A DNA stretch of 64,000 nt from positions 35,686,068 to 35,750,067 of the forward strand of contig CM059566.1 in the NCBI GenBank assembly GCA_030386875.1. The letters run 5' to 3'. The translations under genes and the position numbers were made by a program. The DNA comes from Morinoia aosen. Its lineage: Eukaryota > Arthropoda > Malacostraca > Amphipoda > Talitridae. Below are positions 4,231 through 61,511 of the stretch, one piece after another; positions within the stretch are counted from its first letter, which is position 1, and every line of letters starts with the position of its first letter. The notes beneath the pieces were generated by a model. It searched no databases. It was not told the origin of the DNA and was given only the letters and a program-made list of their open reading frames with translations.

Positions 4231-4234
4231 TAGG

Positions 4235-11942: not shown

Positions 11943-14900
11943 GTGAGTGAAGTGATAATACAAGTTACTTATTAGATTAATTTTTTCATCCATGAACAGA
12001 AACTGTTTTTTCTAAATATCGAAAACTCAATACCTCAATAGTAAATGACATTTGGTTATGGAGCAGTGGTGAAAATTCCCGTCAAGATTGTGGCAAGTTA
12101 CTTATCCGATGCCTTTTTTGAATGAGTTTTTGTCTATGAGCAGACTGTTTTTTTCTTATAAATATCGAACTGTCAATAGAGAGTGCCGTTTGGCTCTGGA
12201 GCAGTGGTGAAAAGCCCCGCAAAGATTGTGACAAGTGTTCATCTAAGTTATGAAATGGCTAGTTACTTCTTTGATTTATATTTTTATCTATGTACAGAAT
12301 CTGTTGCTCTTGAAGAATTGTGCTCCCAATAGCAAGTACCATTTGGTCCTGAGCAGTAGTGAAAAGCCCCGTAAAGATTGTGGCTAGGTACTTTTTTATT
12401 CATTTTAGGAAGGGGTTTTTTTCGTTGATCAGAATCTGTTTTATTTCAAGTATCGAACTCTCGATGCTTCAATAGTAAGTGCCATTTGCTTCTGGAACAG
12501 TAGTGAAAAGTCCTGTAAGGAGTGTGGCAAGTTACTTTCATAATTCATTTTGGTGAGGATTTTTGTAGGATTTTTGATTTCATAAAAATTTAACTCTATT
12601 TTATATATAATATCTTTCTTTTGACCAAATAAATGATATTAAAAGATTTCACAGGGTCTTTATCAATAACAATTTAAAAGCATTCGTAATGTCGGTTTTA
12701 TTCAGTTAAGAAACTTCAACCCCATCCAGCTACAAAGATCTCTAAAAAGTATAAAAAATACAAGAGAGCTTTGAATGTCAGTTCCATGACGTGCTTTATT
12801 GGACAAAGTAAACCTGTAATCTGCATTCATGGAAGAATCCAACTGCCATCTCTTCCGGCGGCAATCGTTTGGAAGATGAAGCAAAACTGCTCGTTGTTCT
12901 GTCATGGTACCGCCATGAGAAGACGTAAATGTTCATACGACAGTTGGTAAAAACCATACTCTGGATGCTAGATCATTTACATCTAGATCAGGATCATTTG
13001 TGGAAGGAGATTTCAGTCTGCGGCGGAGTTCTTTTCTACGTCAAATACACGACCAAAATTACCTCACGTAGACCAAAATTATTTGAGTATTGACTGCATT
13101 GATTGTTTGCGTATTGATTTGAATTATAAATCCGTTAACGAGATCTCATGTTCGATATCGGTGATGTATTTGTTGAGGCAATGAAGTAAGGAAGTGCTGA
13201 AGAAAGTGTTCTGTGTAGTGTTTTTTGCGTTCTTCAAAGTAGCTGCTATATTTGATTATACACGTGAAGACAAATGTCTTAGTATACTAGAAGGCTACGG
13301 AACTCAGTGTTGTATTCAATCATATACTTATCACACCAAAAAACTTCATAACTTTCAAGCATTTGGAGATAGTTGAAGTCCTCTGTGAGTTACCGTAGAT
13401 TAATTACACCGAAACGTTTCGCCTGCATTGAATGAAGTTTGCGTTTTAGTCTCCGTAGAGTTTTTTTTCGTTTTGTTGTGTCTTGAATGACGGCGTTCAA
13501 AAATCTCTCTAGCGCAGCTTTTGAGGACAATGAAAAACTGCAATTAGCAGCAAGCAATCTGCGCCTCTCGTCTCCGCTGGTGCAGCAAAAACGCCCGAAA
13601 GTGGCGGAATATTTCGAGGATGGAAGACTGGAAGTCTTGGTCGGCAACAGTTTCGTAGAATGCCTTCATTATTAAGCGTTCAATTTGGGTGTGAACTCTT
13701 GGGTGTGAACTCTTGGGTGTTTGAATTAAGGTTTTTTATCCAAGTGATAATCGATTATTAAAATGGAATTTTTGTTTTAAACTTCATAGGATATTGATAT
13801 TTGTGAATTCTTGGGTGTTTTTGGAATTGGGATATTTTAGCCAAGCAATAATCGATTATTACAATGGAATTTTTCTTGTAGCTTTAAAGTATAATAGCCT
13901 TTCGGACAGACTTCTACCAGAGCTGTACCTTTTTTATTCTAATTTTTGTAGGCGAAATTACTCAATTTTTAATAATTCCAGATATAAATTTTAAATATGA
14001 ACATGAAACTGAAAATTGTTTCTCTTTGCACATGGGGCTGTCGATTTTATTTAAATCGTACCTCTGGTGAATTAAGAACATAATTTACTTAAATTCAAGC
14101 TATAATGGTTAAGTTGTGAGTTCCTAAGGGAAAGGATAGGTAGTTTTTAGTTCTATTTTTAGAAATGAAAAGTTTTTTTTTCTGGACAACCTTTTTTCGG
14201 TTCAATTACGTCGTTTTTTCGCAACCTCTGATCTCCCTCTTCAACTTTCATCTTGTTTCATAAACTTCTTTCCTATCTTACTGTGGGGAAATGATTTGTG
14301 ATTCCATGCTGAAAGTTAGGTTGGCCTTCTTTCTGTTGAAAAAGAATAGGTTTTATTTTATAACGAACCATGTTATTTTCGGTTCAGTGTCGTTCTATTT
14401 TTAGGACCTCTGACTTTTTTCTTCAAACTTCACCTAGTTCAATTACCTCCCTTCTCAACTTACAGTTTGTATGCGTAGACCTCATGTGGCAACATAACTC
14501 GTGCATAGATCCCCGCCATACTAAATGGTGCCTTCTTCCTTCCTATCTTAGGACACCTACTTAATGTTCGTTCGTTTAAAACTAGTGAGAACAATACAAT
14601 ATTTAGTACGCTGTTATCAGTCTATTGAGCTTCCGTCTCAGGACGTGATGGATTTAAACCTCTACCAAGCTGAAAAAAAATAATGAAATGTAAACTGTAA
14701 CTTGCAGAAAGCATTCGTGGTGTTTCCATATGAAGTTTCAAAAATACATTTTTACGACGAGAAATCGTTTGGTTGACGTCAACGAAAATTGTAATATTCG
14801 CAGGAACGCGCCCCAAGTGACAATTAAAATTTAACGCCTATTTCTCGCAAAATGTTATCAATTTTCGCTGCCAGTAGAGCGCGAGACTTTCCAAGTAATT

Positions 14901-17900
14901 TAGTCGACACCTCGGACGCCAGAATGCATCTTAACTGCCGCTTAATGAACAGCTGCTCTTTATTTGCGTTTCATGCAGCTGCAGTCACTTCAGCTGCAGC
15001 TGCAGTCACTTCAGCTGCAGTCCTTCAGCTGCAGCTGCAGTGACTTCAGCTGCAGTCCTTCAGCTGCAGTTACTTCAGCTGCAGTCACTTCAGCTGAAGT
15101 AACTGCAGCTGCAGTCACTTCAGCTGCAGTCCTTCAGCTGCAGTCCTTCAGCTGCAGTTACTTCAGCTGCAGTTACTTCAGCTGAAGTCACTTCAGATGA
15201 AGTAACTGCAGCTGCAGTCACTTCAGCTGCAGTCACTTCAGCTGCAGTCACTTCAGCTGCAGTTACCACAGCTGCAGTTACCACAGCTGCAGTTACCACA
15301 GCTGCAGTTACCACAGCTGCAGTTACCACAGCTGCAGTTACCACAGCTGCAGTTACCACAGCTGCAGTTACCACAGCTGCAGTTACCACAGCTGCAGTTA
15401 CCACAGCTGCAGTTACCACAGCTGCAGTTACCACAGCTGCAGTTACCACAGCTGCAGTTACCACAGCTGCAGTTACCACAGCTGCAGTTACCACAGCTGC
15501 AGTTACCACAGCTGCAGTTACCACAGCTGCAGTTACCACAGCTGCAGTTACCACAGCTGCAGTTACCACAGCTGCAGTTACCACAGCTGCAGTTACCACA
15601 GCTGCAGTTACCACAGCTGCAGTTACCACAGCTGCAGTTACCACAGCTGCAGTTACCACAGCTGCAGTTACCACAGCTGCAGTAACCACAGCTGCAGTTA
15701 CCACAGCTGCAGTTACCACAGCTGCAGTTACCACAGCTGCAGTTACCACAGCTGCAGTTACCACAGCTGCAGTTACCACAGCTGCAGTTACCACAGCTGC
15801 AGTCATCACAGCTGCAGTCATCACAGCTGCAGTTACCACAGCTGCAGTCATCACAGCTGCAGTTATCACAGCTGCAGTTATCACAGCTGCAGTTATCACA
15901 GCTGCAGTTACCGCAGCTGCAGTTACCGCAGCTGCAGTTACTACAGCTGCAGTCACTTCAGTTGCAGTTACAACAGCTGCAGCATCTAAATAATCGGTGC
16001 TTCAGCTGCTACAGTTTCAGCTGTTGCCCGGTCTCAACGTCATCAAAGTTCTGCAGATTTCAGTCAGGAGACACGCTGTATATTCAAATGTATGAGGTTT
16101 TCTCTCATGAAATGTAAGAGTGTTTTTTTCCATAGTTTTCTCAATTTCTCTTGTGTGGCACACTGCTCCTCAGTGTGCCCCACACTGTGCCTCAGTGTGC
16201 CCCACACTGTGCCTCAGTGTGCCCCACACTGTGCCTCAGTGTGCCCCACACTGTGCCTCAGTGTGCCCCACACTGTGCCTCAGTGTGCCCCACACTGTGC
16301 CTCAGTGTGCCCCACACTGCGCCTCAGTGTGCCCCACACTGTGCCTCAGTGTGCCCCACACTGCGCCTCAGTGTGCCCCACAAAAGCACCCACGCGTAAC
16401 AGACAAACGAGGCACAGGCGCTACAGCGAGGAACAATGCGCAGGTCGCTGGTGGTGCTTCAGCGGCCATTTGAGAAAAGGAATATCTTGGAATATCAATA
16501 TATCAGTTGTGCGTGACTTATTAGTGGCCATTTGAGAAAAGGAATATCTTGGAATATCAATATATCTATTGTGCGTGACTTATAAGTGGCCATTTGAGAA
16601 AAGGAATATCTTGGAATATCAAAATATCAGTTGTGCGTGACTTATAAGTGGCCATTTGAGAAAAGGAATATCTTGGAATATCAATATATCCATTGTGCGT
16701 GACTTATAAGTGGCCATTTGAGAAAAGGAATATCTTGGAATATCAATATATCCATTGTGCGTGACTTATAAGTGGCCATTTGAGAAAAGGAATATCTTGG
16801 AATATCAATATATCCATTGTGCGTGACTTATAAGTGGCCATTTGAGAAAAGGAATATCTTGGAATATCAATATATCCATTGTGCGTGACTTATAAGTGGC
16901 CATTTGAGAAAAGGAATATCTTGGAATATCAATATATCTATTGTGCGTGACTTATAAGTGGCCATTTGAGAAAAGGAATATCTTGGAATATCAATATATC
17001 AGTTGTGCGTGACTTATAAGTGGCCAATTGAGAAAAGGAATATCTTGGAATATCAATATATCCATTGTGCGTGACTTATAAGTGGCCATTTGAGAAAAGG
17101 AATATCTTGGAATATCAATATATCTATTGTGCGTGACTTATAAGTGGCCATTTGAGAAAAGGAATATCTTGGAATATCAATATATCTATTGTGCGTGACT
17201 TATAAGTGGCCATTTGAGAAAAGGAATGTCTTGGAATATCAATATATCTATTGTGCGTGACTTATAAGTGGCCATTCCAGAAAAAGAGTTTCTTGGAATT
17301 TCAATATATCTTTCATGCCCCCTCAGGGGGATACAACTATCGTATCTATGGGAACTAGCGCTCCCATGGAGACTTTTAGAGGGCCCGAGCTGAGAGTTAG
17401 GTAGGCCTTCTTTTTGTTGATATAAAAGTTTCTTGTTATGTTAAGGACCACCTTTTTTCGGTTCACTGCTGTCCTGTTTTTCAGCACCTCTCACTTTCTT
17501 CTTCGACGATTATCTTATTTCATGAACTTCTTTCTCATCTTACTGTTTCTATGCCCTTTCAGCATAGATTCCTCATTTTCTTATCTCCATACTAAATGGT
17601 GTCTTCCTCCTTCCTCTCTTCGATACGCTCTATTTTTGTTGCGGTTAGGGAGGTTTAAACTAACTTATAATCTAATTTAATCTTTCATGCGTGACCTAGT
17701 TTGATGACTGGTCAGAGATTGTGTCTCTCGATGTTTGAACTCTCATTTTGGAATAAAGCGTAGAACATCTTTATAGTTTTTCGAGCGTGATTTTTTTTAC
17801 GATTGGTCATAGATTGTACGTCGCTCGAGTTCGGGCTCTTATTTCGGAATGAAATACAGAAATCTTTATTGTTGGTTTCGACTACGCAACTTATTTTGGT

Positions 17901-20900
17901 GATTATTCATTGGAAGAAACAAAGTAAGTTGAATTATCGTAGTTGATCAATGCAAACTTTAGTTATTACTGAAAATTAAGTTAAGTGAATTGTTTTAATT
18001 AATCAATTGAAATTAGTTTTTACTGGAACTATGTGAACAGAATGGTGCGAGTTTCATTCGAATGTTTGAGAATGCAGTATTAATCTAGCAATTAACAAAA
18101 TATTTTCCTCACAGCTTATCGTACAACGTATAGTGACCTTTATGTCTAGAAAATATCATTGAACGCGCACAGCGAGCTCAAGTTTTACTAGGATGACTAC
18201 AAGAATTTGCATCTGTATAATTGACTTAAACAAATCATTTTTGGGAATTATTATCTCATTCTGAAGCTGAACGCTCGATAATTATCTCTCCATAAGATTA
18301 TACACTCAATGTTCCACCATTTGTTTCATTGCTTAATTTTAAGTTAATGCCCGCTTAAAATTATTTAATGCAAGTGAAGGTTCTTATCAAAACCTAAAAT
18401 GTATCCAGAGTGCCGCTCTGAGAAGCTGGCTACATGCCAGCACGGTTACGACGTCTTGCGTTCCTTGTAGGAATTCGCGAGAAGGGAAATTGCGTAGTGG
18501 CAGGAGCTTGTATTTATTCGATGGGGTAATGTGTGGTGTGATGGGGTAATGTGTGGTGTGATGGGGTAATGTGTGGTGTGATGGGGTAATGTGTGGTGTG
18601 ATGGGGTAATGTGTGGTGTGATGGGGTAATGTGTTGTGTGATGGGGTAATGTGTTGTGTGATGGGGTAATGTGTTGTGTGATGGGGTAATGTGTTGTGTG
18701 ATGGGGTAATGTGTTGTGTGATGGGGTAATGTGTGGTGTGATGGGGTAATGTGTTGTGTGATGGGGTAATGTGTTGTGTGGTGGGGTAATGTGTTGTGTG
18801 GTGGGGTAATGTGTTGTGTGGTGGGGTAATGTGTTGTGTGATGGGGTAATGTGTTGTGTGGTGGGGTAATGTGTGGTGTGATGGGGTAATGTGTTGTGTG
18901 GTGGGGTAATGTGTTGTGTGGTGGGGTAATGTGTTGTGTGGTGGGGTAATGTGTTGTGTGGTGGGGTAATGTGTTGTGTGATGGGGTAATGTGTGGTGTG
19001 ATGGGGTAATGTGTTGTGTGGTGGGGTAATGTGTTGTGTGGTGGGGTAATGTGTTGTGTGGTGGGGTAATGTGTTGTGTGGTGGGGTAATGTGTTGTGTG
19101 ATGGGGTAATGTGTTGTGTGATGGGGTAATGTGTTGTGTGGTGGGGTAATGTGTTGTGTGATGGGGTAATGTGTTGTGTGATGGGGTAATGTGTTGTGTG
19201 GTGGGGTAATGTGTTGTGTGGTGGGGTAATGTGTTGTGTGGTGGGGTAATGTGTTGTGTGATGGGGTAATGTGTGGTGTGATGGGGTAATGTGTTGTGTG
19301 ATGGGGTAATGTGTTGTGTGATGGGGTAATGTGTTGTGTGATGGGGTAATGTGTTGTGTGATGGGGTAATGTGTTGTGTGATGGGGTAATGTGTTGTGTG
19401 GTGGGGTAATGTGTTGTGTGGTGGGGTAATGTGTTGTGTGATGGGGTAATGTGTTGTGTGGTGGGGTAATGTGTTGTGTGGTGGGGTAATGTGCTGTGTG
19501 GTGGGGTAATGTGCTGTGTGGTGGGGTAATGTGTTGTGTGGTGGGGTAATGTGTTGTGTGATGGGGTAATGTGTTGTGTGATGGGGTAATGTGTTGTGTG
19601 ATGGGGTAATGTGTTGTGTGATGGGATAATGTGTTGTGTGATGGGGTAATGTGTTGTGTGATGGGGTAATGTGTTGTGTGATGGGGTAATGTGTTGTGTG
19701 ATGGGGTAATGTGTTGTGTGGTGGGGTAATGTGTTGTGTGATGGGGTAATGTGTGGTGTGATGGGGTAATGTGTTGTGTGATGGGGTAATGTGTTGTGTG
19801 GTGGGGTAATGTGTTGTGTGATGGGGCAATGTGTTGTGTGATGGAGTAATGTGTTGTGTGATGGGGTAATGTGTTGTGTGATGGGGTAATGTGTTGTGTG
19901 ATGGGGTAATGTGTTGTGTGATGGGGTAATGTGTTGTGTGATGGGGTAATGTGTTGTGTGATGGGGTAATGTGTTGTGTGATGGGGTAATGTGTTGTGTG
20001 ATGGGGTAATGTGTTGTGTGATGGGGTAATGTGTTGTGTGATGGGGTAATGTGTTGTATGGTGGGGTAATGTGTTGTGTGGTGGGGTAATGTGTTGTGTG
20101 ATGGGGTAATGTGTTGTGTGGTGGGGTAATGTGTTGTGTGGTGGGGTAATGTGTTGTGTGATGGGGTAATGTGTTGTGTGATGGGGTAATGTGCTGTGTG
20201 ATGGGGTAATGTGTTGTGTGATGGGGTAATGTGTTGTGTGATGGGGTAATGTGTTGTGTGATGGGGTAATGTGTTGTGTGGTGGGCTAATGTGTTGTGTG
20301 GTGGGGTAATGTGTTGTGTGGTGGGGTAATGTGTCGTACGATGAGGGTAATTTTCAAGACATGTACTTCCAGAAAGAAAATTTTCGAGCAGAAAAATAAT
20401 TATTTATGGTACGAGCATAATTTTTTGCAATTTTAGATGACATATTGTTGGATTGTAATTTTTTCATACGTAGGGGGAATTTTCCAAAATTTCCTTTTTA
20501 GGTCATTCTGCTTATTTAGGGTAAAATTACAGGGTAACCCGAATTATGCTTGACATATTTATCCCTAACGTGGGGTAAAATGACGGTAAGCTGAGTGAAA
20601 TTTTTGTAGCTGAAAGTTCCCTTATGCACGGAACAATATACCTGTAAACTGGCTGTGGTGTTTGCAGCACTAGCGTAAAGATGTTCCTTCTTGCTCCCCC
20701 AGTACAACGGGGGCCGGCAGAACAGATTTGAGCCTCTACACGGCAGAGTGTCTAACGGTATCGGTGAGAGAGGCAGAGGTATTGTATCCTGCAAGTTCAA
20801 TTCTTATAATAAGCTCAATTTTTAATGAACTTAATAATCAAATGTTGTTTATTATAATTGTCCATTAATTAACAAATGGGCATTCAAATTTTATTTCAGG

Positions 20901-23900
20901 AGCATTTAATATAACGTGCAGTTTTTGATGCCTATAGTCTTAATCTTAGCTAATTTTATTTTCTGCATGGAAAGCGTTTAAATGTTTTGTTAATGTTCCT
21001 CATGCTATTTTTGTTGTTGTAGGCTGTGTGATGTTTACTTGCAGCGCAAAGTAATACATAGCTCCTGAGTTTTATTCATTCTTTCGTTACCAGCAACTCC
21101 ACGTTGTTGTGTACGTTATTTACATGTCTCATTGAGTTACATCCAGCTCTTCAATTCCCAGTCTAACTCTTTCGCCACCTGCATGCATGTTTTTCGCCGC
21201 CCTAGTAATTAAATCGCTTAGGCGGCGAAAAACATGCATGCTCCGTAGAAAAAGTTAGACTGTTTTTTTCAAAGCATTTCACTTCGATTCTCTGATATTT
21301 CAAATCTTGAGCGTATTAAGGTGCAAGGCACGGGAAATCCTTTTGTGCATAGGTTCCTCGGTTCCTTAATTTTATGCTGAATGGTACCTTCTTTCTTACC
21401 CTCTAGGGAACTCGTTTGTTGTGATTAGGGAGGCTTAACTCTTTAACGCCCACATTTTATACTCATATTACCGTTATCACAACCACTTTCACTAAACCGA
21501 CACTGGCATTAGGTAGCCACTGTTATCAAGATGTGGAAGGAACTGCCACGCGGCAGTGAAGTTCAAAGGACACATTAGTGAACAAATTGAATAAGAAAAA
21601 CAATATATTAATGTTATTTTTTTAAGAGGACAGTACAGTCCACTTGGGCGTTAAAGGGTTAAACTGGCTTACTCTTCAGGGAAATATAACTAGTGTGCGT
21701 ATTGGAATTATCCAATCCAGGAGTAAGGTGTGAAGTCCCGACTGAATATTAGGTAGGCCTCTTTGTTGAGATAGAATAGGAATTTGTTTTGTTACGAACC
21801 GTCCTTTTTCGGTTTACTGCTGTCCTATCTTCAGCACTTACAACTTGTGCCATCTTTTATTTTGTGTCATAACCACTTTCAACCTCACTGCCTCTCCGTG
21901 CAGTGTGTGGGACACCAGTATTGCAGATATTCCTCCTGCATTCAATTCTACACTAAATGGTGCTTTCTTCCTTCCGCTTTTGGGAACGCCTTTATTGTGG
22001 TTGAGAATTGCTTAAGCCAAATTTTAATCTAACCTTATCGTAACTATCTCATTAGACGTATTGAAGAATCTAATCCAAAATATTATAGTCAATACTTGTT
22101 TACTAACAGCGTATAAATTCATAAAATAACATTGATTGCGTTTAAATTGTCGCGCATCTTTCTTGCATTTTTTATACACATGGTTCTAAAACATTAGTTC
22201 ACATGTTTCCACGAGTGTGCTGTTCAAATTTCGTCAGTACAATCTCATGCAATTTCACTCTAATATTTCTTTTTGCTCCCGGTTCTACCGAAATTTTCCA
22301 TTGCTAACTCTCTTTTCTCACGTTTCTATGGGAATAGTTATTCGCACATTTCTGCAAAATAATTCCACACATTTCCCTACTAATACCTAACATGGCTGCA
22401 ACATTCACGCTGCCAGGAGATGACTTCAGCTACTACGACGACCGGGTACGTGCTTTGCTTTCTTTATTGCTATGTTGTTATCTCTATGCGTTTTAGGGTT
22501 GACAAGATCACAGCACGGCCAGTATAGCGTCAGATTTGCTAACTTTCAGAACAATCTATATTGTATATTTATTGTATTTTTATAGATTGTAATATATTCT
22601 ATACTATAATAAGAGCCCCGTCTGTCTGTCTGTCTGTCTGTCCGAAGCCAGCCTGCAGTGTGTGATGAGCATATCTGTGATACAAGCTCCAGTCCTATAT
22701 ATTTTGACGGGCCGTGTTCACGCGGCCTCATCAATTCTCGAGAGATTGTATTTTTTAATTTCTTACGGCCTTTTTCTCATTTCGCCCTCTTTTTTTTCAA
22801 ATGAAGGGGGTGGAATAGTTTGAATACTTGATGTATGCTTGCAGTTAAACATGAACAGGCGTCTATGTTTCGAAATTTCAGACAAACACCAAAAATAATT
22901 AAGCAATGCATTTCTTTTTCTGGTGTCTAAGTGAAATACTCGAAACCAGCTAATTAAAGTGAGCTCATCTAGCTTATTTTTTCGATAGTATTCTCATTTT
23001 GGCTTCCTTGATAGTGCGTGGTGTTATATTATTTTGTGAATATAGAAGTGTGCAAACTGTCTTGTTCGTGTTCATTTGTACATTGAAAATTCAGAAGCCT
23101 CTCATTTTTTATAACGTGACCAAAAGTGCGTCAAAATGTGATACCGTGTGGTTATTAACTCAGTACTTCTCACATATTAATATTTTATTCCTATTTTCAG
23201 TAGTTGAAGTGCATTTTCGTGCTTGATACTGCCTCTGTTTCAAAATCTTTTCTGTTTACCTTCCGAATCTTTTTCTTTGTTGGAAGCGAAGGAATCAATG
23301 AGAACGAAAATTTTCATACTTACGAACGCATGCTGAAGGTGATGTTTGTACATCGGAGCGTTACTTTTCATAGACTACAGAGATATAACTTTTGTAATAA
23401 TAGACAGTGCTCTAACATAAAAAAGTTCAGTGAATTCCTTCATATCTCATAAATTAACGCGTGAGTTTCCCACTGGACTCGCGCGTATAATTTCATTTCA
23501 CTAAACTCACCGCAACGCTTCTAGTATAAAAAAGAAAGACCTGATTTATGTTTGAATTTTAACCGAAGTTATGGGTTCTGTCGATCATTCCATAGTCGCT
23601 CTCGCCGCCTCATCGGTATTTATTGATACTCCGTAACGATTATTTGTCATCGACGCTTCCGTGTTTAGTGAAGTTGGGGCGGGGAAAACACAACCGTCAC
23701 GGGCTTCACATTATCTGCATTCGATGGACGTAGATATCTACCATGGTATCATATCTACCATGGTGTCATGATATCTACCATGGTATCATATCTACCATGG
23801 TATCATATCTACCATGGTATCATGATATCTACCATGCCATGGTATCTATATATCTACTATGGTATCATATCTACCATGGTGTCATGATATCTACCATGAC

Positions 23901-44900: not shown

Positions 44901-47900
44901 AAAATATGGCAGCAATTTCAGAATGACTAGGTTGATTGTTCATAATCTCTGTCAGTCATTAAAAAATCTGTGATAGGCCTAGTATCAAATGAAGCTAATG
45001 AATAAAAAGTAATTGTTAACTATTGCAGCAGGTAATGAAATACATTGAATATGCACAGTATTGTATCAGATGACAAATAATATCGATGATTATATACAAT
45101 ATTCAACAAGTTCATAATATAAATAACACAGATGATTCTCTGGAATAGTGGGCTAGTTTCTTAACAATGTTGAATATGTGAAAGATTTTATACCTTAACA
45201 AAAACGATGATCACTTACGTACAACCTAGTACAAGTTGAATGAACTTGATGATTATGTTTAATATTGCCTCACTAAAGTAAAGGGGCAATCGGTCGAACA
45301 TTGTCAATATACGCAAATTTGGATAATCTCATAAAACTTTTTATCCGTATAGACTACGCGCTTCAGCCCCTCAATCAACACTTGCAGCTCCTCAATTAAC
45401 CAATTTTTCCTTCTTTTCCAGGGCGCACCCGGCATCCCAGGTACGTTGGGTCTAGCCGCTCTCCCTCACTGCTGTACTTCTCTGTAGGACTGTGAATGAA
45501 CCGAAGTGGAGCATGGTGGTAGTGAACCATGCATACTGAACTATACTAAACCAGACAATGAACCATATTTATAGTGTACCATCCTGAACTGAAGCTATAA
45601 TGAAGCCTTTGAGCCGTATTGAGCTATAATGAACCATCGTAAACCATGATGAACCAAGATAAACTAAAGTGAACCATCCTGAACCACAATAAAATAAAAT
45701 GAACTATGGTGAACCATCGAATATGTGTTGTTTTCGTGCTGCGAAGAAATAGCTTGTGAATTTTTTTACCTTTTGTTATTAATATTATTATTTAATTGAG
45801 TTATTAGAATTTAACTGAATTTTATTTTAAAATAAAAATAAATTCATGCATTTAAAAAAACGACATCGTGTTGTAAGCAAAAATCTCTGGTATGTTTCAA
45901 ATTCTTCATTTTTACAGGTGGAAGCGGCAACGATGGAAGCTTCGGCCTCCCCCTGACCACCTCTTCCACCATCACCTTCACTTCCCGCACTTCCATGATC
46001 CAGGTACCGCTTCCACTACCAATTTCAGTAGGATGGTTATTCGTTAAGCATCACTTTTACCTCAAAAACTTCCATGATTCAGTTACCGCTTCCATTTTTT
46101 AATTTGAGGAGGATAACTCTTATTTACGCATCACTTTTACCTCAGGCACCCCCATGAGTCATGAGCACTTATTCATCTTCTAATCAACAGGAGATTGGCC
46201 CTTCTCTATGAATGAGTTATGTCTCAATGCACTCATCAGATGAAATTCTCATTTATTTTAAGATGAAATTCTCATTTATTTTAATTGCCATCATGAGGAT
46301 AACAATATTTTATGCACGAGTTCAATCTCAATGTAAATTTCTACTGAGAACCGCTATGACTTCTACTATTTATTATTGATATAATTCTTTTCTTATCGAA
46401 TCCCGTAACCTTAGGCTATTCTACATAGCCACCTACTTAAACGTTAATTTTATTTTATATTTTGATTTTCTTTCTTTTTTCTACGTGAATTGCATGAAAG
46501 AGATCAGTTTAAACAGATTCTTTTAAGCTTGGAGTTTGACAATATACATGTAGTTATGTCTTTAATTTGATTTTTTGTTTATTAATTCGCAGCTCCATAC
46601 GTGATGAAGGGCCTAGACTTAAAACGCACGCGTTTAATATTTTTTAATATTCGTTAATATTTGTGAATATTTTTTACTATTTGTTAATATTTTTTTATGT
46701 AACTCGTAGCGCAGAAAATACGTCCCCAAATTTTATTCGCTTCATATACTCAACAACTCGTGCATGAATCTCATCACAAAAATAGTTTATCACTTTTTTT
46801 ATTGATTTCTATAATTTGACTTGAGTGCTGCAAAAATATAGTAATTCAATTAATTAATACAGTATTTCACTGTCAAAAGCCAGGTCATGTTTTCAGGACA
46901 CGTGGCGCTTGTTATAGCATGTTTTGTTTTCTTTCAGTTAATTTAAGTTTTGCAAGAATATCTGTAATTTATTCAGTATATCAACATGTGACGTAAGATC
47001 TCGTTAACACACGTATAACAGCGATGGCTCAAATGCAACTCATATCAACATGTGACGTAAGATTTTGTAAACCCATTAAAAACAGAAAGCTCAAATATAA
47101 CTCATACATCATAACAACACGTGACGTCAGATTTTGTTAACACGCGTTAAACAGCGAAAGCTCAAATGCAACACATATGAAGATGTGACGTAAGACTCCG
47201 TTAATCCACGGCACCTTACGCCCGCCAGGACTGGTCGTCGTACTCGGTGGGGGCGCTGGCGTACGTTGTGGCGGACGACTCCATGTTCGTGAGGACGTCA
47301 CGTGGCTGGCGGGAGGTTATGGTGAGGTGCCTTGTGTTGGTGTTCTGTGCTGCATTCTCTGGTGATCCTGTGCTTCATTATCTGGGGATCCTGTGCTTCA
47401 TTCTCTTGTGATCTTGTGCTGCATTCTCTGGTGATCCTGTGCTTGTGCTTCATTTCCTGGGAATTCTGTGCTTCATTTTCAAAGGGCATTAGGATGAAAG
47501 ATTACCACGTTTCTTGCAGTGTGTTAAACTGAAGTTCAATATTTAATTCAAAGTTATAGTCAATTGGCGTCAGCAATTTTCAAATAGCAAATATTTACTG
47601 GAGTGTGCCTTTAGTATTTATAAAAATTAAGTTATTGACCGGAAGTCAGCCGGCAGTCATTATGACAATCTCCTCAGTGACCACCGGTGGGTCCCTTAGC
47701 ATGAAACGTGTTGACTGAAGTAAAAAAAATCAAAGGCATCCCGCACAACACAAATCAACTCCTGAAACTTATTGGGAGAAATTCCATGACATCCCTCACA
47801 GCAGTTCGAAAAACTGAATTTCTGAATAAATAATGTAGGATTAAATCCAAGGCATGCCACTCAACACTCGGCAACGATTAACTCCGCGAATTTTAAAGCT

Positions 47901-50900
47901 GTGAAAATCCAAAGATGTACCGCGGAACTCTGTATAAGAATAATATCTTGGAAACCTACGTACGTAGCAACTCCAAGTAACACCACGCAACGTTCGAAGT
48001 AACTCCTAGAAAAGTAACGTGTAAAGGTAGAAATATTAAATTACATATTAGTGTAATTATATAATATTACCAAGTAATGTAATTCTATAATATTACAAAG
48101 GAATTTAATGTTTCGCCCTTTTTCCCTTTCCTATTTCAAGATTAAAAATTTCATCAAAGTCATATAACATTCCCTCCTTTTCTCCTTCCCCATTTCAAGC
48201 TTAAAGATTACTTCATTTGTCACAGCTCGGCACGGTACTCACCCACTCCTCAGAAGACCAGGGCCCCATCAGGCCGCTGTCGCCTCCGGTGGAGACGATC
48301 CCTGAGGTGCTGCACGGCACCAGGAGGAACCGACCTTCTTGGGTGAGGCGGCGTCTGTTCTAGGCTAGGGAATTTGTGCTTTTGGGTTCGAGTGTACAAT
48401 ATTTGATGTTAAGTGTAGGCTGTCGTTTTGCGCCGTTAGACTTTTGGGTTCGGGTGTACAATTATTGCTGTTAAGTGAAGGCTGTCATTTTGCGGCGCCT
48501 AGGCTTTTGAGTTTGGGTGAACAATATTTGATGTTAAGTGAAGTCTATCATTTTGGGCGTTTAGATTTTTGTGTTCGGGCTTACAATAATTGCTGTTGAG
48601 TGAAGGCTGTCTAGGGTTCTTGAAACCGTTGTCGAATCATGTGGAGACGATACCTGAGGTGCTACGTGGCATACGGAGGAACTGACCTTCTTGGGTGAGT
48701 CAGAAGGTTTGTCTAGTTTATGCCCTGGGGATTGGCGCCTCCAAGGGGAAAGTTCGGTTATCTCAACTATAGAAAGTCCTCCGGGACTTGCATCTGTCGA
48801 GCCCTCTTTGCTTCTCTTCGTTTTGACCCTTAACAGCCCCACGTGCCAAATATGGCACACTCTCTAAGAATGATAAAAAAAAATTCTCTTCGAATTCGTG
48901 CTCTAATGTAATTTTCAGAGCTTTCCGCTGGATGTCAGTTCCGTCCCCATTGTAATGTTGGTGATAACCTGATGCCAGCTTCAGTCTAATGACAGTGGTT
49001 GTGATATTGGGATATGAGTAAAAAAATTGTACTGAAATGGGTTGAAGCCTTCTTCGCTATCTCTTCTTCGTCGTTTCTCCCTCTGGTTTCATCACTCGCT
49101 TTTTCTATGCCCAGGGTATCGTGTGCATAGGCTAGTGAACTTAGGCTTTTGAATTCGGGTTTTCAAATACTGCTGTTAACACGTTAACTACCATGTGAGC
49201 CATCGGTGGTACAGAGTGGAAATTATTATTCTAGAAATTAGACTAGTGCTTTCCATGAGTGATTCGAATGTATTCTAATTTTACACACGTAGGTTTCCTT
49301 GAATAGTCACATTTATCTCATAAAAAACGGTATTTCTCTCTTTTGTTACTAATATTACACAATTATTTTACAAGGCATCAAATAACTTTCTATAACAAAA
49401 ACGAAAATACAATTACTCGATTATTCTCAACCGTTCATAAATGTTTAAAATATGTTTCTAATCGTCTACTATGACAGAAACGATTGCTTTTGTTACGTTG
49501 CTCGTGAAACTAAGATAGAGCTTCCACATTGGCTTCAATCTGAGTACAACTTGGCAATCGTCTGGCTCATTCGCAAAATTACTGAAAATATTTTCCAATT
49601 ATTCATTATTTCTTATCCACATGCTGGTGTGTGACTGCGTTTACTATCTAAATGATTGATAATTATCAATGATTGAAAACTATCAATCATGCTGACCTCA
49701 ATTATTATAATTATTGAAATCTCTCTAATACTATCAGTCATTGATAAATAATATCAAATTTCGCTTTTCCAGCAATCCAACCAGTGGGGAGACCCGATGG
49801 TGCGAGCAAACGACGTGAGTTTGAGATGTGAAACTGAGCAGATGTTCAATGGTTATTTGCATTATTCTCAATGTATAAATACTGCACAGAATGGGTAATA
49901 GGTTTAGGTTAGTTAGTGTCTGTCCTTTGCTATAAGGACTGGTGCTCCCCGGGGGATACTGTTAGGCTACTGTGGCAATAGATAGGCTTTCGGGACGTCT
50001 AGTTTTCGTGCCCACTTTGCTTCTTATAATGTTCATGCCTTTTTTGCTATTTCTTCTTTGTCATTTACTCCTCTTTCTTCCTAACTTGCTGTTCCTATAT
50101 GCATTGGGCATATTTTGCGCAAGGACACATGCATTACGCATTGGTCCCCCGTTTTCAATAGTTTATACTAAATGGTCCTTATTCCCCGTTCTCGTGCAAT
50201 CACTTTTGTTGTCGCTAGGTTCCTGCGGTAATTTTACAGTACTGTGTAATTACTGTATAATTTAGGTTGAATCTGAGATTGTAATTTGCAGAATTCACTA
50301 TTGGTTTTAATTACAGGCTCCATAATGCATAAATACATGAATAAATTTGAATTTAGGATTAGATTCTACTACATTAACGTCTGCATACAGAATTTAACCT
50401 GATTGCCTCTTCGCAGGGCTAGTTTACGTTTATATTCCCGATAGAATGTATTTTCTTACACTTAAAGCCCTTTCTTCACCATACGCAAGCCAAACCTTCA
50501 TTCATACTGCACGCATCACATTTTTGTTGAAATTATGACCTGTGAGTACTTTACTGTGATCTAGCGGATTCATGAGGCATTCATCGTAGGTTTATATTTC
50601 GCGGATGCCAGTACATTTTTCGCAATCATCCTTGTGCTGTGACGAGAGAGGCAAACTCGATTATTTTTCCACGTTTTCTTTATTATTTCCTCAGAGGAGA
50701 CCAAATCAGTGGAGCCAACCCAACGCGCACGAGCAGCAGGTAATACCACATCAGTAGCTTGCCCGGAAGATAGGTAGCCAGTTGTCTGAGTGTCGCGTGC
50801 TCTTCATTAATACAATTATTGAATTTTCGGGACCAGGGCAAATAGCGAAAGCGACAGGGCAAATAGGCAGCACATGTTCAGACTCTCTTTTTACATCTCA

Positions 50901-53900
50901 AGGTAGTGTATTGGCTAAATAATGACTGCACTCGCTGAAAATAATTGATTGGGGGATCAACTAAGACAACCCCATGTCAAAATACTCAATAAGTTAATTG
51001 TATTTAACTCTTATCTCTCCCGTTCGACCAGCCTCCTTCTCAACACGACCGCAACGCTTACGGTAACAACTACGGCGGCTCTCAAGGCCGGGATTCCCAC
51101 GGTCGGGACTCTCACGGTAACGGCCACAGTTCTCACGGCAACGGTTACGGTTCCCACGACCAGAACTCGCACGGCAACGGTCACGACACGCAGGACAGCG
51201 AGACAACACGGCACTCCCACCACGGCCAGGACTACTTCTACGATACGGACAGCAAGGACCGTACTGACTACGCTCACCACGGCTACGACCACGACCACAC
51301 TTACCACGCTCATCCCGGGGTGAGCATAAGTAACGCTCATCTCGCTTTGTGGCATGTGCGGTAATTTAGGGAAGTGGTTTATAGGTAACAATTTGTGAGA
51401 AACAGTTTGTGGGTACTAGTTTGTGGGTACTAGTTTATGGGTAGCAGTTTATGGGTAACAGTTTTTGGGTAACAATTTTTGGGTAACAGTGTTTGAGTAA
51501 AAGTTTTTGAGTAAAAGTTTTTGGGTAGCAGTTTTTGGGTAGCAGTTTTTGGGTAGCAGTTTTTGGGTAGCAGTTTTTGGGTAGCAGTTTTTGGGTAGCA
51601 GTTTTTGGGTAGCAGTTTTTGGGTAGCAGTTTTTGGGTAGCAGTTTTTGGGTAGCAGTTTTTGGGTAGCAGTTTTTGGGTAGCAGTTTTTGGGTAGCAGT
51701 TTTTGGGAAGCAGTTTTTGGGAAGCAGTTTTTGGGTAGCAGTTTTTGGATAAGTTTTTGGGTAACAGTTTTTGGGTAACAGTTTTTGGGTAACAGTTTTT
51801 GGGTAACAGTTTTTGGGTAACAGTTTTTGGGTAACAGTTTTTGGGTAACAGTTTTTGGGTAACAGTTTTTGGGTAACAGTTTTTGGGTAACAGTTTTTGG
51901 GTAACAGTTTTTGGGTAACAGTTTTTGGGTAACAGTTTTTGGGTAACAGTTTTTGGGTAAGAGTTTTTGGGTAAGAGTTTTTGGGTAAGAGTTTTTGGGT
52001 AAGAGTTTTTGGGTAAGAGTTTTTGGGTAAGAGTTTTTGGGTAAGAGTTTTTGGGTAAGAGTTTTTGGGTAAGAGTTTTTGGGTAAGAGTTTTTGGGTAA
52101 GAGTTTTTGGGTAAGAGTTTTTGGGTAAGAGTTTTTGGGTAAGAGTTTTTGGGTAAGAGTTTTTGGGTAAGAGTTTTTGGGTAAGAGTTTATGGACAACA
52201 GTTAGTAAGAGTAATGAATAATTAATTAGTGAACATTAGTTATTGAACGATCAATTAGGACAAAGAAATGATTGATAGTTAATCTCAGTCAGTGCTTTTT
52301 CCTTTGAAATTACCAGTTAATTTGGTACTCTTTACCTCGAGCTCTTTTTCAAAATTACTGCAGCTGTCAATCTCGTGAGTTTTAAATTTTTCCTTACTTT
52401 TATTCTTCATTTTCGCTTATTGTATTCGCCTCTCCATTCTTTCTTTCATTGCAGTCTCTTTTCTCTGTCGTGCACTGGTCTCTTGTATTCATCATGATTT
52501 GAAAATAATTGATATTGCAGCCATTCTGAAAGAAATTTTATTCTGAATCCCAATCCCGATTGCAAAATGGCGTGATCAATGAAGACGTTCAAAGAATAGA
52601 ATAAGCAATGAAAAACTGCGATAATGATTTATGGCAACATAATTCTTTGAGAATGAAATACCACAAAACAGTAAGAATTCCAAATTAGGAAACATATACC
52701 AATGAAATAAATGTTTCAATAATGAGATATTTGTCCCACCAGCCCGAGCCAAGCCCTGACTACGACGACTCCGACGACGGCTGGGGCAAGGTTAAGGTGA
52801 GGGGTTCTGCGGGGCTCATTGTGAGGGGTTCATTTTAAGGGGTTCGCTGCGGGGGCTCATTTCGCTTGATTCATAGCGTTGGGTTCATAGCGTGGGGTTT
52901 ATTGAATGGGATTCATTGCATGGGGCTCACTGGATGGAGTTCATTGCATGGGGCTCGCTGGATGGGGTTGTGTGAGGTTCTTTGAGTGATCTTATTCGAT
53001 TGGGGCTAATTGGAAGGGGTTCATTGCGTTTGATTCATCTTATGTAATTCATTGCATGGGGCTTATTGCGTTTGGTTCAGTACGTGAGGTTCATCACTGG
53101 TAGTAAAGTATGCAGTGTACGCCGAATCAAACAAAAAATGAGCACCATCGCTTTTGAAATTTGGGTTTGGATTTAAAAACAAAATCCATGAAACTTAAAT
53201 TCAAAATAAAATTGATACCGCAGTACAGAGACAATATATATATATATGGTGAATTTATGATTGTTTGAATTGTGAAATTGCCGTGCGGCCGGGACCCGGG
53301 TTCGAAACTCGGCGCTGGCGGTGGCGATTTACTCTGTTGGGTATAGGAGAAAAATTCCAAGCACAATACCCCACTCTACCCAGGTGTCTGAAATGGGTAC
53401 CGGTCTTGACCGGAGGAAAGCGTCCTGGCGTTAGTTCTAAGGCATTTGAAAATCCAATGTACAAGGTGATATGTATCAGGCTTGATTGGAAATAAAGCAT
53501 CCGTAGATGCCTTCATTATTATTTAAAAAAAATTTTTAATCGAGCAAGAAATGCTAACTCCGTCAATGAAATATAAATCAGGCGAAAATACCAATAGAGC
53601 TCCCGTTAAAATCAACATTTTTACCTGTTCTCTGATGCCAGCGCTGAGCTAAAATGTAAATCAGATATAAATTTTCTGTTCAGTTGGAAATAGGGTTCGA
53701 TGGTGATAATATTCTTTTTAAAATCCTCTTCTTTACTGTATGTATTAGAGTTGCAGTTAAATACATGGAAACGCAATAAGATGTGATCACTTTTTGAGTC
53801 CACAGTTGGAACATTTAGTTTTAATGGAAGGGCTTACTGACTTAGATGCAAGTTTAATGAGTTAAGACAAAGGCAAGCAGATTAAGTTCCATAAAATCAA

Positions 53901-56900
53901 ATATGCTAAAATGTAATTTAGTTGCACCTAATAAAAATTCAAATAATGAATAAATAATCACCAGTCAAAAATGAAGTGATTTTTGGGACACCTCGTACAC
54001 TACTCCACTTCATTCACATAGAATCCGTATAGGTAAGGTACCAGAAGGTTACTTATGAGGTGAATGTATTCCTCAAAATACTGTAGTTACAACATTCCTA
54101 AAAGCTTAAATTCCATCGTTTAGATATGTTTCTTCGATCGAAAGCATTTTACGACCCAAATCATGACTCGCACAACACTAATATTTTGCTCCAATTTCAG
54201 CCTCCTGTGTTGAACGGCGGCGACTGGATAAGCAGCAGCGGTGAGGTGAGGACAGAGTGATCTCAGTACTGACAGAACTCTGGTAGTCTGAAGTACTTAT
54301 CTTATAGAAGTACTTATAGAACTCTGAAAATCTTTATTGCTTCTTTGGTCAGCTGGTAGGTTGGTTGCAATAGTTCACGCTCTGCTTTCTCTAACAACAC
54401 ACTGTAAAATTCAACACAGTGTTCTTAGTCACATTGCACGGTGTAATGTTGCATGTTGTGTTGTATGTATGGTTTGATGCAAATGCTAATCTTGCGCAGA
54501 ACCTTCAGTGACTATGTTGTGTATATAGTTTGGTGCAAATGTTGGGGAATCTTTGCCTGGGGTCGGTAATGTGAGCAATGTGCCATAACGGGACACCAGT
54601 GGTCGGTATAGATTTATTTGAATACCGTGAGTGTAGGTGTTACAAACCTCAGCTTTGAGGCACTTTGATACCTCCCTAACCAGACGCAGAATTTAAATGA
54701 AAACATCAGGACTGATTGATTTTATTGCAACTGAGATGTGAAACAATCATGTTTGGTTTACTTTCAACTGTAGTATAGAGCCATCAAGATTAATTTAATT
54801 CAAATTAATATGAAGCAATCATGACTGACTTCATTTTAACTGGAGAGTAATGCAATCATGTATTACTTACTGCTACAGTAATACTGAGCAATCATGATGG
54901 ATTTAAAGCTACTGATCCTTTGATCAATTCGTTACAGATAGTTAATCGTAGGTATGAAACAATTGTAAATAATCCGTTTTTAATGATAGTCCCATTGAAA
55001 GTATGACCCTATAACCCCACTAAAGCTATGACCCTAGAATCTTAAAGGAGTAATAAACCTGTAACCCCACTGAACCAATGACCATATAACCCCACTGAAG
55101 TAATCACCTCACAACCCCACTGAAGCAATGATAACCCCAGTGAAGTAATGGCCAAATAAGTGAAGCAATGATCCTATAACCCCAATGACACCACAAGTGA
55201 ACCAACAACCCCAATGACACCACAAGTGAACCAACAATCCCACGACCCCACAACCCAATGACCCTTTAAGTGAATTAACAACCCCGCCACGCAGCACCTG
55301 CGGCTGGCGGCACTCAACGAGCCCGTGTCGGGAGACCTGCGGGGCCAGAAGGCGGCCGACTTCTCCTGCTATCGCCAGGCCCGCTCTGCCGGCCTCACTG
55401 GCTCTTTCAGGTGGGGTGTGCCCTTTGTTGCTGGGGTTGTGTCCTTGTGGGTAGGGCTACCTCCTGTATGGGTGGGGTTAAACCCTTTACCGGTGGGATT
55501 TAATCCTGTGTTAGTGAGCTTAATATTTTCTTGGTGGGGTTTAATCCTCAGTCCTGTATGCATGGGCTTCTGTCCTGTACGGGATGGGTTTATTTTTTAA
55601 TGGGTTTCGTTCCTGTATAGGTTGAGTTCAATCCTTCGTCAAAGAGGTTCAATCCTTCACAGACGGGATTCACTCTCATGTTCCTGATCTCAAGCACGTC
55701 ACATTTCCCATCAAATATCCACACGACTGCTAATCAATCGATCTCATTCGTGCACTCGGCCTTTAGTTACCTGAAAAATCACTTCAAATTTCTTACAAGC
55801 AAGCACAAGCCTTGGCCCGATTTCCATTTCGTAACTATTAACTAATCTCTTTGAGTTATTTTCCTCTTATTTAATTCAAATTTAGGTCATAATTTCCTAA
55901 AATTTTTGCACTCGAACATTTAAAGTATCACTTGTAATTCAACCGTGAAAATTTAAAAAGATTTCAAGGGTCTTCCGCTCAAAACATCATTAATCACTCA
56001 TTTACCTTATGATCTGAAATCAAGCAAACAATTCTTAGTATATTTTTCCATAAACAGTTTGAACAATTCAAGATGACTGTTACGTTAAAAAAATTATTAA
56101 CTGCTTTAAAAATTATTACTGAAAAATTTGTCACTGTTCCAGAGCGTTCTTGGCAGACTCGTCTGGCATCACTTCTCTGGTCCGCTCCACGCTACAGAAC
56201 CTGCCTGTTGTCAACCTCATGGTGGGTGGTGTGTGGTGATTGTGGTGTGTGGTGATTGTGTTGTGTGGTGATTGTGTTGTGTGGTGATTGTGTTGTGTGG
56301 TGATTGTGTTGTGTGGTGACTGTGTTGTGTGGTGACTGTGTTGTGTGGGGATTGTGGTGTGTGGGGATTGTGGTGTGTGGTGTGTGGTGTGTGGTGATTG
56401 TGTTGTGTGGGGATTGTGTTGTGTGGTGATTGTGTTGTGTGGTGATTGTGTTGTGTGGTGACTGTGTTGTGTGGGGATTGTGGTGTGTGGTGTGTGGTGA
56501 TTGTGTTGTGTGGGGATTGTGGTGTGTGGGGATTGTGGTGTGTGGGGATTGTGGTGTGTGGTGTGTGGTGTGTGGTGATTGTGTTGTGTGGGGATTGTGT
56601 TGTGTGGTGACTGTGTTGTGTGGGGATTGTGGTGTGTGGGGATTGTGGTGTGTGGGGATTGTGGTGTGTGGTGATTGTGTTGTGTGGGGATTGTGTTGTG
56701 TGGTGATTGTGTTGTGTGGTGACTGTGTTGTGTGGGGATTGTGGTGTGTGGTGTGTGGTGATTGTGTTTTGTGGTGATTGTGTTGTGTGGTGATTGTGTT
56801 GTGTGGGGATTGTGGTGTGTGGGGATTGTGGTGTGTGGGGATTGTGGTGTGTGGGGATTGTGGTGTGTGGTGATTGTGGTGTGTGGCGATTGTGGTGTGT

Positions 56901-59900
56901 GGTGTGTGGTGATTGTGTTGTGTGGTGTTATGTTGTGTGGTGTAGTGTTGTGTGGTGAGTGTAGTGTGTGGTGAGTGTGGTGTGAGGTGAGTGTGGTGTG
57001 AGGTGATTGTGGTGTGAGGTGATTGTGGTGTGAGGTGATTGTGGTGTGAGGTGATTGTGTTGTGTGGTGATTGTGGTGTGTGGTGTTTGTGGTGTGTGGT
57101 GTTTGTGGTGTGTGGTGACTGTGGTGTGTGGTGACTGTGTTGTGTGGTGACTGTGTTGTGTGGTGACTGTGTTGTGTGGTGACTGTGTTGTGTGGTGACT
57201 GTGTTGTGTGGTGACTGTGTTGTGTGGTGACTGTGTTGTGTGGTGACTGTGTTGTGTGGTGACTGTGTTGTGTGGTGACTGTGTTGTGTGGTGACTGTGT
57301 TGTGTGGTGACTGTGTTGTGTGGTGACTGTGTTGTGTGGTGACTGTGTTGTGTGGTGACTGTGTTGTGTGGTGACTGTGTTGTGTGGTGACTGTGTTGTG
57401 TGGTGACTGTGTTGTGTGGTGACTGTGTTGTGTGGTGACTGTGTTGTGTGGTGACTGTGTTGTGTGGTGACTGTGTTGTGTGGTGACTGTGTTGTGTGGT
57501 GACTGTGTTGTGTGGTGACTGTGTTGTGTGGTGACTATGTTGTGTGGGGATTGTGGAGTCGGCGATTGTGTTGTGTGTGTGGTATGCATGCCTTTATGTA
57601 TGATCATGTTTATGTGTGGCATTCAAGTTTATGTGTGTGATCATGTTTTGTGTGTGGCATTCATGTTGACATGTGTGGTGATCATGTTTTGTATGTGCGT
57701 AGAGCATTCATGTCTATATGTGTGGTGATGTCGATACAAGATGATCCAAACTTGCACACTTCATCGAAAATGTCCCCCAAAAATTGCCGAACTGCGAAAG
57801 TTTGCTCAATGTGCCCTGTAGACTGTCGGAGAATACGAAATTTGTGCGAATGACTAGTACATCAGGGCATGTTCTAAGAAGAATAGCGCGAATGAGATAT
57901 TTCTTGTCCCCTTAGAAGTATGCAACTGTTGCATCTATGGGAACCATTCCCAAACGATGGTCCACTTTTTTTCTATCGGACGTACGTCTATGAAAGTTTG
58001 CAGACTACTAGATCTCCACATAAATAACAACTTTTGTTTAAGAAAAATTTTTCATAAGGCCATAGGAAATTAATTATTTGAAAAAAAAAATTATATATAT
58101 ACATATATTATTCATTTTAAATTCGAAATTTACAAAGCTAGAGCAATGCGGTTTGTTGCATTTGAAAGTCAAACGTTGGCTCTATCTAAAATACGGGTGA
58201 ATTTTTTTAATCATTTCAATGAGAATTTTTATGAATTTTTCATTGTAAGGGTCAGAGCAAAAGTTATAATTTTAGGGTAAAAAAGTCTACGGAAATCTTT
58301 ACAGAAAATTTTTTGGAAATTCACCCGTAATGTAGATAGAGCACATATGTCACTTTCAAATGCAACAAACCGCATTGCTCTAGCTTTGTAAACTTCGGAG
58401 TTATAACGACAAACGTCTTGATAAGTTACTTTTTTTATAAAACCTATTTTTAAGAAAAAAAATGGTTCTTCTCCTACATTTTTTGAGCTACAGTGATGAT
58501 TTTGGTATCATTGGATGCAGAAAAACAAGGGCTTTACAATGTATTGAGAAGTTTTTCAAAATTCATTCTTGTTTCAAAGTTATGACGTCATAAATTTGAA
58601 TTTTCTTGAGAATATTTTGATTTTTTTCCTTTTTAATTTTTTAAATTTTTATATTGGCAATTTGAGGAAAAGCATTCAAGTTTTTGGAATGTCCACGTTA
58701 TTCTGCATCCAATGATACCAAAATCATTACTGTAGCTCAAAAACTATCAGAGAAAAAGCATTTAGAAACCCCCCCCCCCCCCCCCCCCAAATGTCGTTTT
58801 CTATGATTTCCCATTTTCTTTTCAAGAAAATCGCATTTTGTCATAAATGATAAATGATTCTAAATTGTATTTCCTATCAGTATACCAAATTTCATTGCTC
58901 TAAATTCAATAATAAAAAAAATATTCGGATGGGGATGAGGAATATGAATGATGAAATATATAAAAAAATAAAATGAAAAAAATTGAAAATTTGAGTTTTT
59001 TTTGTCCACGTTATTCTGCATTCAATGATACCAAAATCATTACTGTAGCTCAAAAACTGTAGGAGGAGAATCATTTAGAAAACCCCCCCAAAAATGTCGT
59101 TTTCTATGATTTCCCATTTTCTTTTCAAGAATATCGCATTTTGTCATTAATGATAAATGATTCAAAATTGCATTTCCTATCAGTATACCAAATTTAATTG
59201 CTCTAGGTTCAAAAATGAAAAAAAAAGGTCCGTAAGAGGGATGCCCTCCAACCCCCCCCCCCCCCCCCCCCCGGGGGGGACATTAGCTCTGGGATACGTT
59301 CCTGATATTTTTACAGACATTCGGGGACATATCTCAAACTCATTTAAAGCAGTAAAAAAAAAATCGGGAGAATCGACTTTTGGACTGCAGATGCCCCAAT
59401 TGCCATGTAAATGCTTCCCTTATGGGAATTATCAATCCCAAAGGAAAATGTGAGGTCCCAAGCTGAAGGTTTGGTTGGTCTTCCTGTTTCAACAGAGAAC
59501 GCTTTTTTTGTTTTGTAATAGACCAACTTTTTTCAATTACCTGCTTTGCTGTTTATCAGCACCTACTAATCTCTTCTTCTATTTTTATACGGTTTCATAA
59601 TTTCAATTTTATACATGTTGTTTACATGTTCAGGAGATCTTTTATGGGGGATTCCCTACATGTTGAAGAGAGAATGCTTGGATGTCTTTTGGATGTGTTC
59701 GGTTGATAAATGCGGTGTACGCATAGGTCCAATATTTTCGAAGTTAGGTAAATAGCACTGATTTTTGAAGAACAGTACGATTCGTTACCAAGTTAATATT
59801 TATAGTATTGGCGGCATTATGAGTTATAGTTGACACATAAGTTGGCTTACTTTCATCATCCTAAACGCACAGCTTAAACAATATTTTCCCGTATTTTAGA

Positions 59901-61511: not shown

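Follow-up and report, generated by a model that had tools for sequence, protein, structure and literature searches.

Tandem arrays lie close to many splice sites of a single gene in the talitrid amphipod Morinoia aosen, and the question raised by this locus is whether DNA is duplicated preferentially at exon-intron borders and, if so, what kind of process is responsible. The window analysed here is a stretch of 64,000 nucleotides without any N (GenBank assembly GCA_030386875.1, contig CM059566.1, positions 35,686,068 to 35,750,067 of the forward strand), and all coordinates given below are positions in this window. An earlier note on this DNA had proposed such a preference and knew of no described system that behaves in this way; border-spanning tandem repeats have, however, been published as the "mirages" of amphioxus (lancelets). 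According to the available text of these reports, mirages are tandem repeats that lie at, or extend across, the 5' or 3' border between exon and intron, as in the globin genes BflGb6 and BflGb9, where their mechanism is called unclear (PMC3087553); mirages also occur in PGBD5, with troponin C cited as a further case (PMC3902484).

The gene is located on the + strand (11790..61511) and was modelled with 20 exons and 19 introns, not the 24 introns counted previously. The exons, placed by reading frame and GT/AG borders, are 11790-11942, 28005-28190, 29585-29809, 31827-32009, and 33306-33585 (exons 1-5); 34149-34288, 35390-35503, 42190-42292, 43099-43241, and 44317-44541 (exons 6-10); 45422-45440, 45918-46003, 47229-47321, 48226-48342, and 51032-51319 (exons 11-15); and 52743-52796, 55295-55410, 56143-56221, 60051-60163, and 60830-61511 (exons 16-20). 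The model was made by eye near the coordinates of the earlier note and from collagen and endostatin frames; while all 14 donors named in that note coincide with modelled donors, this agreement is therefore not blind. Support for the model comes from the fact that the 20 exons can be read as a single open frame with a length of 1132 codons; that exon 1 is spliced to exon 2, 16 kb away, is probable from frame and splice consensus. Since the predicted product contains triple-helix collagen repeats, a trimerisation domain, and a C-terminal endostatin domain (Pfam: Collagen, 4e-43; Collagen_trimer, 7.7e-9; Endostatin, 1.3e-43; PDB: endostatin, 2.5e-35), the gene is of the collagen XV/XVIII (multiplexin) type. 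The trimerisation segment, searched alone against PDB, did not match any collagen chain, and a scan of the endostatin end against prokaryote genome contigs found no relative. The protein runs approximately 165 residues past the endostatin match (window 61020-61511), beginning with a run of basic residues. Fifteen open frames outside the model, picked by hand and located in 12 cases in the 5' region or in intron 1, showed no Pfam family; further exons, e.g., those of a longer isoform, may lie beyond these 15 frames. Searches of the window with Rfam (at gathering thresholds) and with a tRNA scan were both empty. In the model, the reading frame is intact when exon-proximal splice sites are used, and splicing would probably be undisturbed by the arrays.

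Application of TRF to the whole window yielded 76 rows, which merged into 50 arrays, 39 of them intronic; the permissive set, defined by a score of >=90, comprised 50 arrays, 38 of them intronic. Strict arrays were nearly absent from dinucleotide shuffles of array-free sequence (none in nine of 10 shuffles, one in the remaining shuffle). Permissive counts were restricted to scores of >=90 because permissive TRF at score 50 yields 7 to 18 chance arrays in shuffled array-free sequence. This cut-off and three additions from self-BLAST were chosen after a first look at the data, which is partly answered by a scan of 15 threshold settings and by counts made without the self-BLAST additions. A total of 41 arrays were classed as donor-side (15), acceptor-side (10), or intron-interior (16, starting >100 bp past the donor and ending >60 bp before the acceptor); arrays are thus not exclusive to borders. 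In the permissive TRF plus self-BLAST set, an array edge lies <=60 bp from 12/19 donors and 10/19 acceptors. Most units are minisatellite-sized (14-125 bp, plus one 5-bp unit), and copy number reaches 151.

With regard to donors, TRF identified arrays in intron 3 (103-bp unit x2.2, 29876..30097, donor +66), intron 7 (21-bp unit x151, 35523..38698, donor +19, with block structure), intron 10 (27-bp unit, 44549..44736, donor +7), intron 13 (23-bp unit, 47338..47480, donor +16), intron 14 (62/125-bp units, 48378..48611, donor +35), intron 15 (14-bp unit x59, 51377..52203, donor +57), and intron 18 (16-bp unit x87 with a 32/85-bp continuation, 56226..57731, donor +4). TRF and alignment placed an 80-bp unit (x2.4, 45970..46161) that begins 34 bp within exon 12 and spans the donor of intron 12 at 46004. 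Permissive TRF added a degenerate GTGTT-type array in intron 5 (33585..33839, donor offset -1), a G/T-rich 14-bp unit (x20) in intron 16 (52811..53094, donor +14), and G/T-rich units of approximately 20 bp at the donor of intron 17 (55410..55548, i.e., 55410-55479 with score 76 and 55422-55548 with score 114). Self-BLAST contributed a degenerate tandem repeat of approximately 150 bp in intron 1 (11963..12564, donor +20) and an approximately 89-bp duplication in intron 9 (43252..43508, donor +10). The earlier description of arrays at 14 donors thus holds for 12, where arrays of the permissive TRF set or the three self-BLAST additions start at -34 to +66 bp. It fails at 28191, where the nearest array is at +157, and at 60164, where only TRF rows scoring 57 and 59 are found, although exon and donor sequence is duplicated there at +135.

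Acceptor-side arrays were identified by TRF in intron 7 (C/A-rich 19-bp unit x143, 39514..42175, ending 14 bp short of the exon), intron 8 (54-bp unit, 42904..43064, 34 bp short), and intron 12 (64-bp unit, 46978..47210, 18 bp short), and by permissive TRF in intron 1 (27730..27946, 58 bp short), intron 3 (28/55-bp units, 31462..31798, 28 bp short), intron 4 (40-bp unit, 33179..33303, 2 bp short), intron 6 (39-bp unit, 35129..35368, 21 bp short), intron 13 (26/59-bp units, 48033..48215, 10 bp short), and intron 16 (C/A-rich 25/29/44-bp units, 54986..55296, reaching the exon). Each of the five acceptor coordinates named previously has an array end no more than 17 bp away; the distance to a modelled acceptor is 5-11 bp for four of them, while the fifth, 47205, is 23 bp from the acceptor at 47228.

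The distances from arrays to splice sites were compared, within this one gene, with random placement by permutation, with each intron's arrays placed at random within their own intron and introns with an array edge <=60 bp from the splice site counted. Edges cluster at both intron ends: in the permissive set, arrays start near the donor in 10/19 introns and end near the acceptor in 9/19, versus 2.20 at random for each (P at the floor of 5e-5 in both cases). The corresponding strict TRF counts were 7/19 donors (2.22 random, P 0.0023) and 6/19 acceptors (2.21 random, P 0.014), and P was <0.05 in 15/15 threshold settings for donors and 14/15 for acceptors. Circular shifts gave a similar picture, with 10 donors and 9 acceptors versus means of 1.75 and 1.76 in the permissive set (maximum 6 in 1295 shifts) and 7 and 7 versus 1.88 and 1.87 in the strict set (maximum 7, P 0.0015). 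Controls in which the arrays were read the wrong way, i.e., array ends at donors and array starts at acceptors, were not enriched (in the permissive set 1 and 1, in the strict set 0 and 2). Strict clustering was weak at <=10 bp (2 donors, P 0.063; 0 acceptors), and strict acceptors gave P 0.11 at <=100 bp. A score of local self-similarity that does not depend on array calls, compared with one random interior position per intron, gave 12/15 for donors and 10/15 for acceptors versus 3.3 (P at the floor of 5e-5); when this score was contrasted with a pool of 659 interior positions, donors gave P 0.026 and acceptors P 0.28, a weaker result because a few giant interior arrays fill the pool.

Each array has its own unit, as had been proposed. 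Among 22 border units (the three self-BLAST duplications being left out), only one of 231 pairs was alike over >=70% of the shorter unit, and this pair, the intron 5 pentamer and a G/T-rich unit of intron 18, was no better than shuffles (z 1.2). A single mobile element of an introner-like kind was rejected on the basis of this comparison between introns. When the donor and acceptor units of the same intron were compared in six introns, a partial match was found in intron 16 (52811-53094 versus 54986-55296), covering 0.43 of the shorter unit with z 4.1 in the better of the two orientations, while the pairs of the other five resembled each other no more than shuffles did; the flanks of intron 16 themselves were unremarkable in the inverted-copy comparison.

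Some of the duplications include exon sequence. For every border, a segment of 40 exon and 20 intron bases was compared with <=1 kb of the own intron and of the 18 other introns, and the own intron was the best match at 11/38 borders versus 2 expected (P 2.7e-6), in four of the 11 by only 1-2 points. At 5/38 splice sites the intron holds a clear duplicate of exon sequence, so that the earlier statement that several first units contain the splice site was fair. These borders are the donor of intron 12 (described above); the displaced copy at the donor of intron 14, where the end of exon 14 with the donor (48303-48347) recurs 352 bp away at 48655..48699 (alignment score 55 versus a maximum of 22 in the 18 other introns); the donor of intron 19, where the end of exon 19 with the donor (60144-60183) recurs at 60279..60318 (score 35 versus 19); the acceptor of intron 19, where self-BLAST identified an approximately 160-bp duplication over the acceptor and the start of exon 20 (60576..60885, with 60812-60869 matching 60654-60711; score 91 versus 27); and the acceptor of intron 9, where the last 2 intron bases and the start of exon 10 (44315-44354) recur at 44161..44200 (score 40 versus 18). 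The intron 18 border also scores high, yet its match is intronic except for two bases. The remaining border arrays are intronic or lack a clear exon copy, and the majority begin just inside the intron. Permutation, circular shift, and self-similarity support statistically, in one gene, the preference of duplication for exon-intron borders that had been proposed, and the five exon-including duplications support it as well.

Unit maps of nine arrays provide some indication of array history. In some of these arrays the unit walk fell out of phase (e.g., the acceptor array of intron 7 and a 15-bp array of intron 1), and we thus used the maps but not the identity figures. The donor array of intron 7 shows long blocks of identical units, with changes from block to block along its length; in introns 15 and 18, donor-proximal units are more varied than the long distal run. 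Some of the mapped arrays, in one haplotype, thus contain runs of identical units as well as varied units by one edge; local duplication followed by homogenisation would leave such a pattern.

The two sides of the exons differ in strand composition. The mean excess of G+T over A+C is +0.227 in donor flanks (+7 to +200) and -0.151 in acceptor flanks (-200 to -21), and in 18/19 introns G+T is in greater excess on the donor side than on the acceptor side (paired Wilcoxon P 1.9e-5). By array class, the G+T excess is +0.24 for donor (n=15), -0.22 for acceptor (n=10), and +0.09 for interior arrays (n=16). Donor flanks with arrays show +0.25 (15 introns) versus +0.14 without (4 introns), and acceptor flanks with arrays -0.22 (10 introns) versus -0.07 without (9 introns). 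On the acceptor side, A and C are in excess instead of C and T, so that the skew there does not simply represent the polypyrimidine tract. Intron skews coupled to splicing were reportedly treated by Touchon in 2004, and part of the background skew may thus be ordinary. The mirror around exons is one of composition only, since neither flank of an exon is an inverted copy of the other: when flanks were compared in inverted orientation, the partner from the same exon ranked first in 1/18 exons (0.95 expected), and the partner end from the same intron in 0/19 introns. Such a mirrored composition would result from an exon-centred cause, and we consider it a tentative and rather doubtful idea that exons are centres of symmetric duplication, with the outward strand G+T-rich on both sides and amplified into private arrays. 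If true, this would point to an event at the exon, e.g., a break with synthesis outward on both sides, and not to the direction of transcription.

We consider it probable that the arrays are a gene-wide set of mirage-type minisatellites that arose by recurrent local duplication at borders and were later homogenised. Short tandem duplications would have occurred repeatedly and independently in intronic sequence directly next to an exon, in some cases extending over the splice site and into the exon; the exon-adjoining copy would be preserved by selection on the protein, while surplus copies would be harmless within the intron. Slippage, unequal exchange, or conversion could then multiply and homogenise the inner units, and each intron end would therefore come to carry a private unit that inherits the local strand composition. 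The preference for borders would, in our interpretation, stem from mutation rather than selection, through a break, nick, or stalled fork linked to the border. Points against this mirage-type reading are that clear exon copies are found at only 5/38 borders, that 16/41 arrays are interior, and that several tests with the strict set are weak.

Random seeding could also have produced arrays near both intron ends, if it took place in ancestral introns of 100-200 bp whose ends were later pushed apart by insertions (transposons). Several introns do hold interspersed repeats, and array coverage peaks 50-300 bp from intron ends and drops at 300-500 bp. First-array offsets within 150 bp are, however, skewed toward the border and not uniform (KS P 0.001 for donors and 1e-4 for acceptors in the permissive set; 0.026 and 0.046 in the strict set), and donor and acceptor units are unlike in five of the six introns compared, intron 16 with its partial match being the exception. 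In addition, permissive clustering holds in short introns (<=1500 bp) and in long introns taken apart, while the strict set at 60 bp is borderline in introns <=1500 bp (P 0.057 for donors, 0.054 for acceptors) and strict acceptors of long introns give P 0.30 at 30 bp and 0.12 at 60 bp. We thus regard a short-intron ancestry as possible but unlikely.

Recurrent border duplication also has to be weighed against selection, under which splice-site repeats would be retained as splicing aids (e.g., as G/T-rich enhancers after donors) or be tolerated only there. The G+T richness of donor arrays would suit this view, as would the enrichment of G-quadruplex motifs and short tandem repeats at human exon-intron junctions in the available text of PMC9065059; but 4/15 donor arrays are not G+T-rich, acceptor arrays show an excess of A and C rather than C and T, and border units are not significantly poorer in the decoy acceptor AG than their composition would predict (P 0.12, 22 arrays), which leaves selection, in our judgement, quite improbable. 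The earlier note had named R-loops among possible causes, and instability linked to R-loops or transcription on a G-rich coding strand would be consistent with the positive GC skew of donor-side arrays on that strand (mean +0.24, n=15). As acceptor-side arrays, which are also enriched at borders, have the opposite skew (mean -0.38, n=10), such a mechanism would not start both kinds of array; R-loops could serve donors but hardly acceptors, and an origin by R-loops only fits poorly and is very unlikely. That the pattern reflects an assembly artefact or chance is scarcely credible: while the arrays are known from a single assembled sequence of one haplotype, ordered variant blocks inside arrays and an intact frame in all modelled exons are not expected from mis-assembly, and chance is disfavoured by permutation, threshold scan, self-similarity score, and circular shift.

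As border tandem repeats with units of about 10 to 160 bp, the arrays resemble the lancelet mirages in the available text of the mirage reports, where units measure 10-72 bp in the Adh3 mirage (Canestro et al. 2002, via citing papers) and 150-160 bp in BflGb6 (PMC3087553), and the border arrays probably work in the same way. Lancelet mirages are, however, repeats that span the exon-intron border, which is clearly the case here at 5/38 borders; most border arrays in this gene abut the exon without clear exon sequence. Conversely, the extent within one gene (12/19 donors and 10/19 acceptors), the copy number of 151, and the measured mirrored strand composition go beyond the mirages as published in the text available; gene-wide extent at both intron ends and mirror composition were not seen in these mirage reports and appear new relative to the literature surveyed. 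The portion of the report on lancelet huntingtin scaffolds that was available mentions tandem repeats, with no border association seen there (PMC2206037). Human splice sites are likewise enriched for non-B motifs and short tandem repeats at exon-intron junctions, but the short tandem repeats there are partly polypyrimidine tract, according to the available part of that report, whereas those described here are mostly minisatellite-sized (PMC9065059). Tandem genomic duplication has also been linked to intron gain in the accessible text of PMC4974935; such duplications are likewise tandem within a gene, but the extra copies described here sit in existing introns. While mirages have so far been reported gene by gene, to judge from the available text of these reports, 25 border arrays in one gene make the mechanism testable through border distances, both intron ends, and the strand signature. 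If the mirror symmetry around exons were to hold across the genome, models of exon-centred repair could thereby be told apart from transcription-linked models, and the symmetry would bear on intron lengthening and on the origin of new splice sites.

Other repeats are also present in the window. An element of approximately 230 bp, bounded by TTAA and carrying CCCTTTAACG-type inverted termini, resembling a piggyBac-type MITE, occurs three times (2203-2432, 7983-8212, and 21435-21662), and a second interspersed family of approximately 330-370 bp, with copies about 70-87% identical, is found at 7334-7690, 9520-9850, 17319-17690, and 21684-22020; two interspersed-repeat patterns were absent from the viral contigs searched. 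Upstream of the gene, arrays at 3510-3961, 6562-6834, and 8459-8833 adjoin GC-rich islands at about 3990-4290, 6840-7050, and 8280-8490, in which no coding content was recognised; these pairs could represent unrecognised exons, or GC steps rather than splicing could attract arrays. The interior of intron 1 contains a 20-bp array of 92 units with a GC skew of 0.98 (18520-20351), remote from modelled exons, and intron 18 contains a duplication of approximately 230 bp with 87.5% identity between its copies (58690-58921 and 59003-59224).
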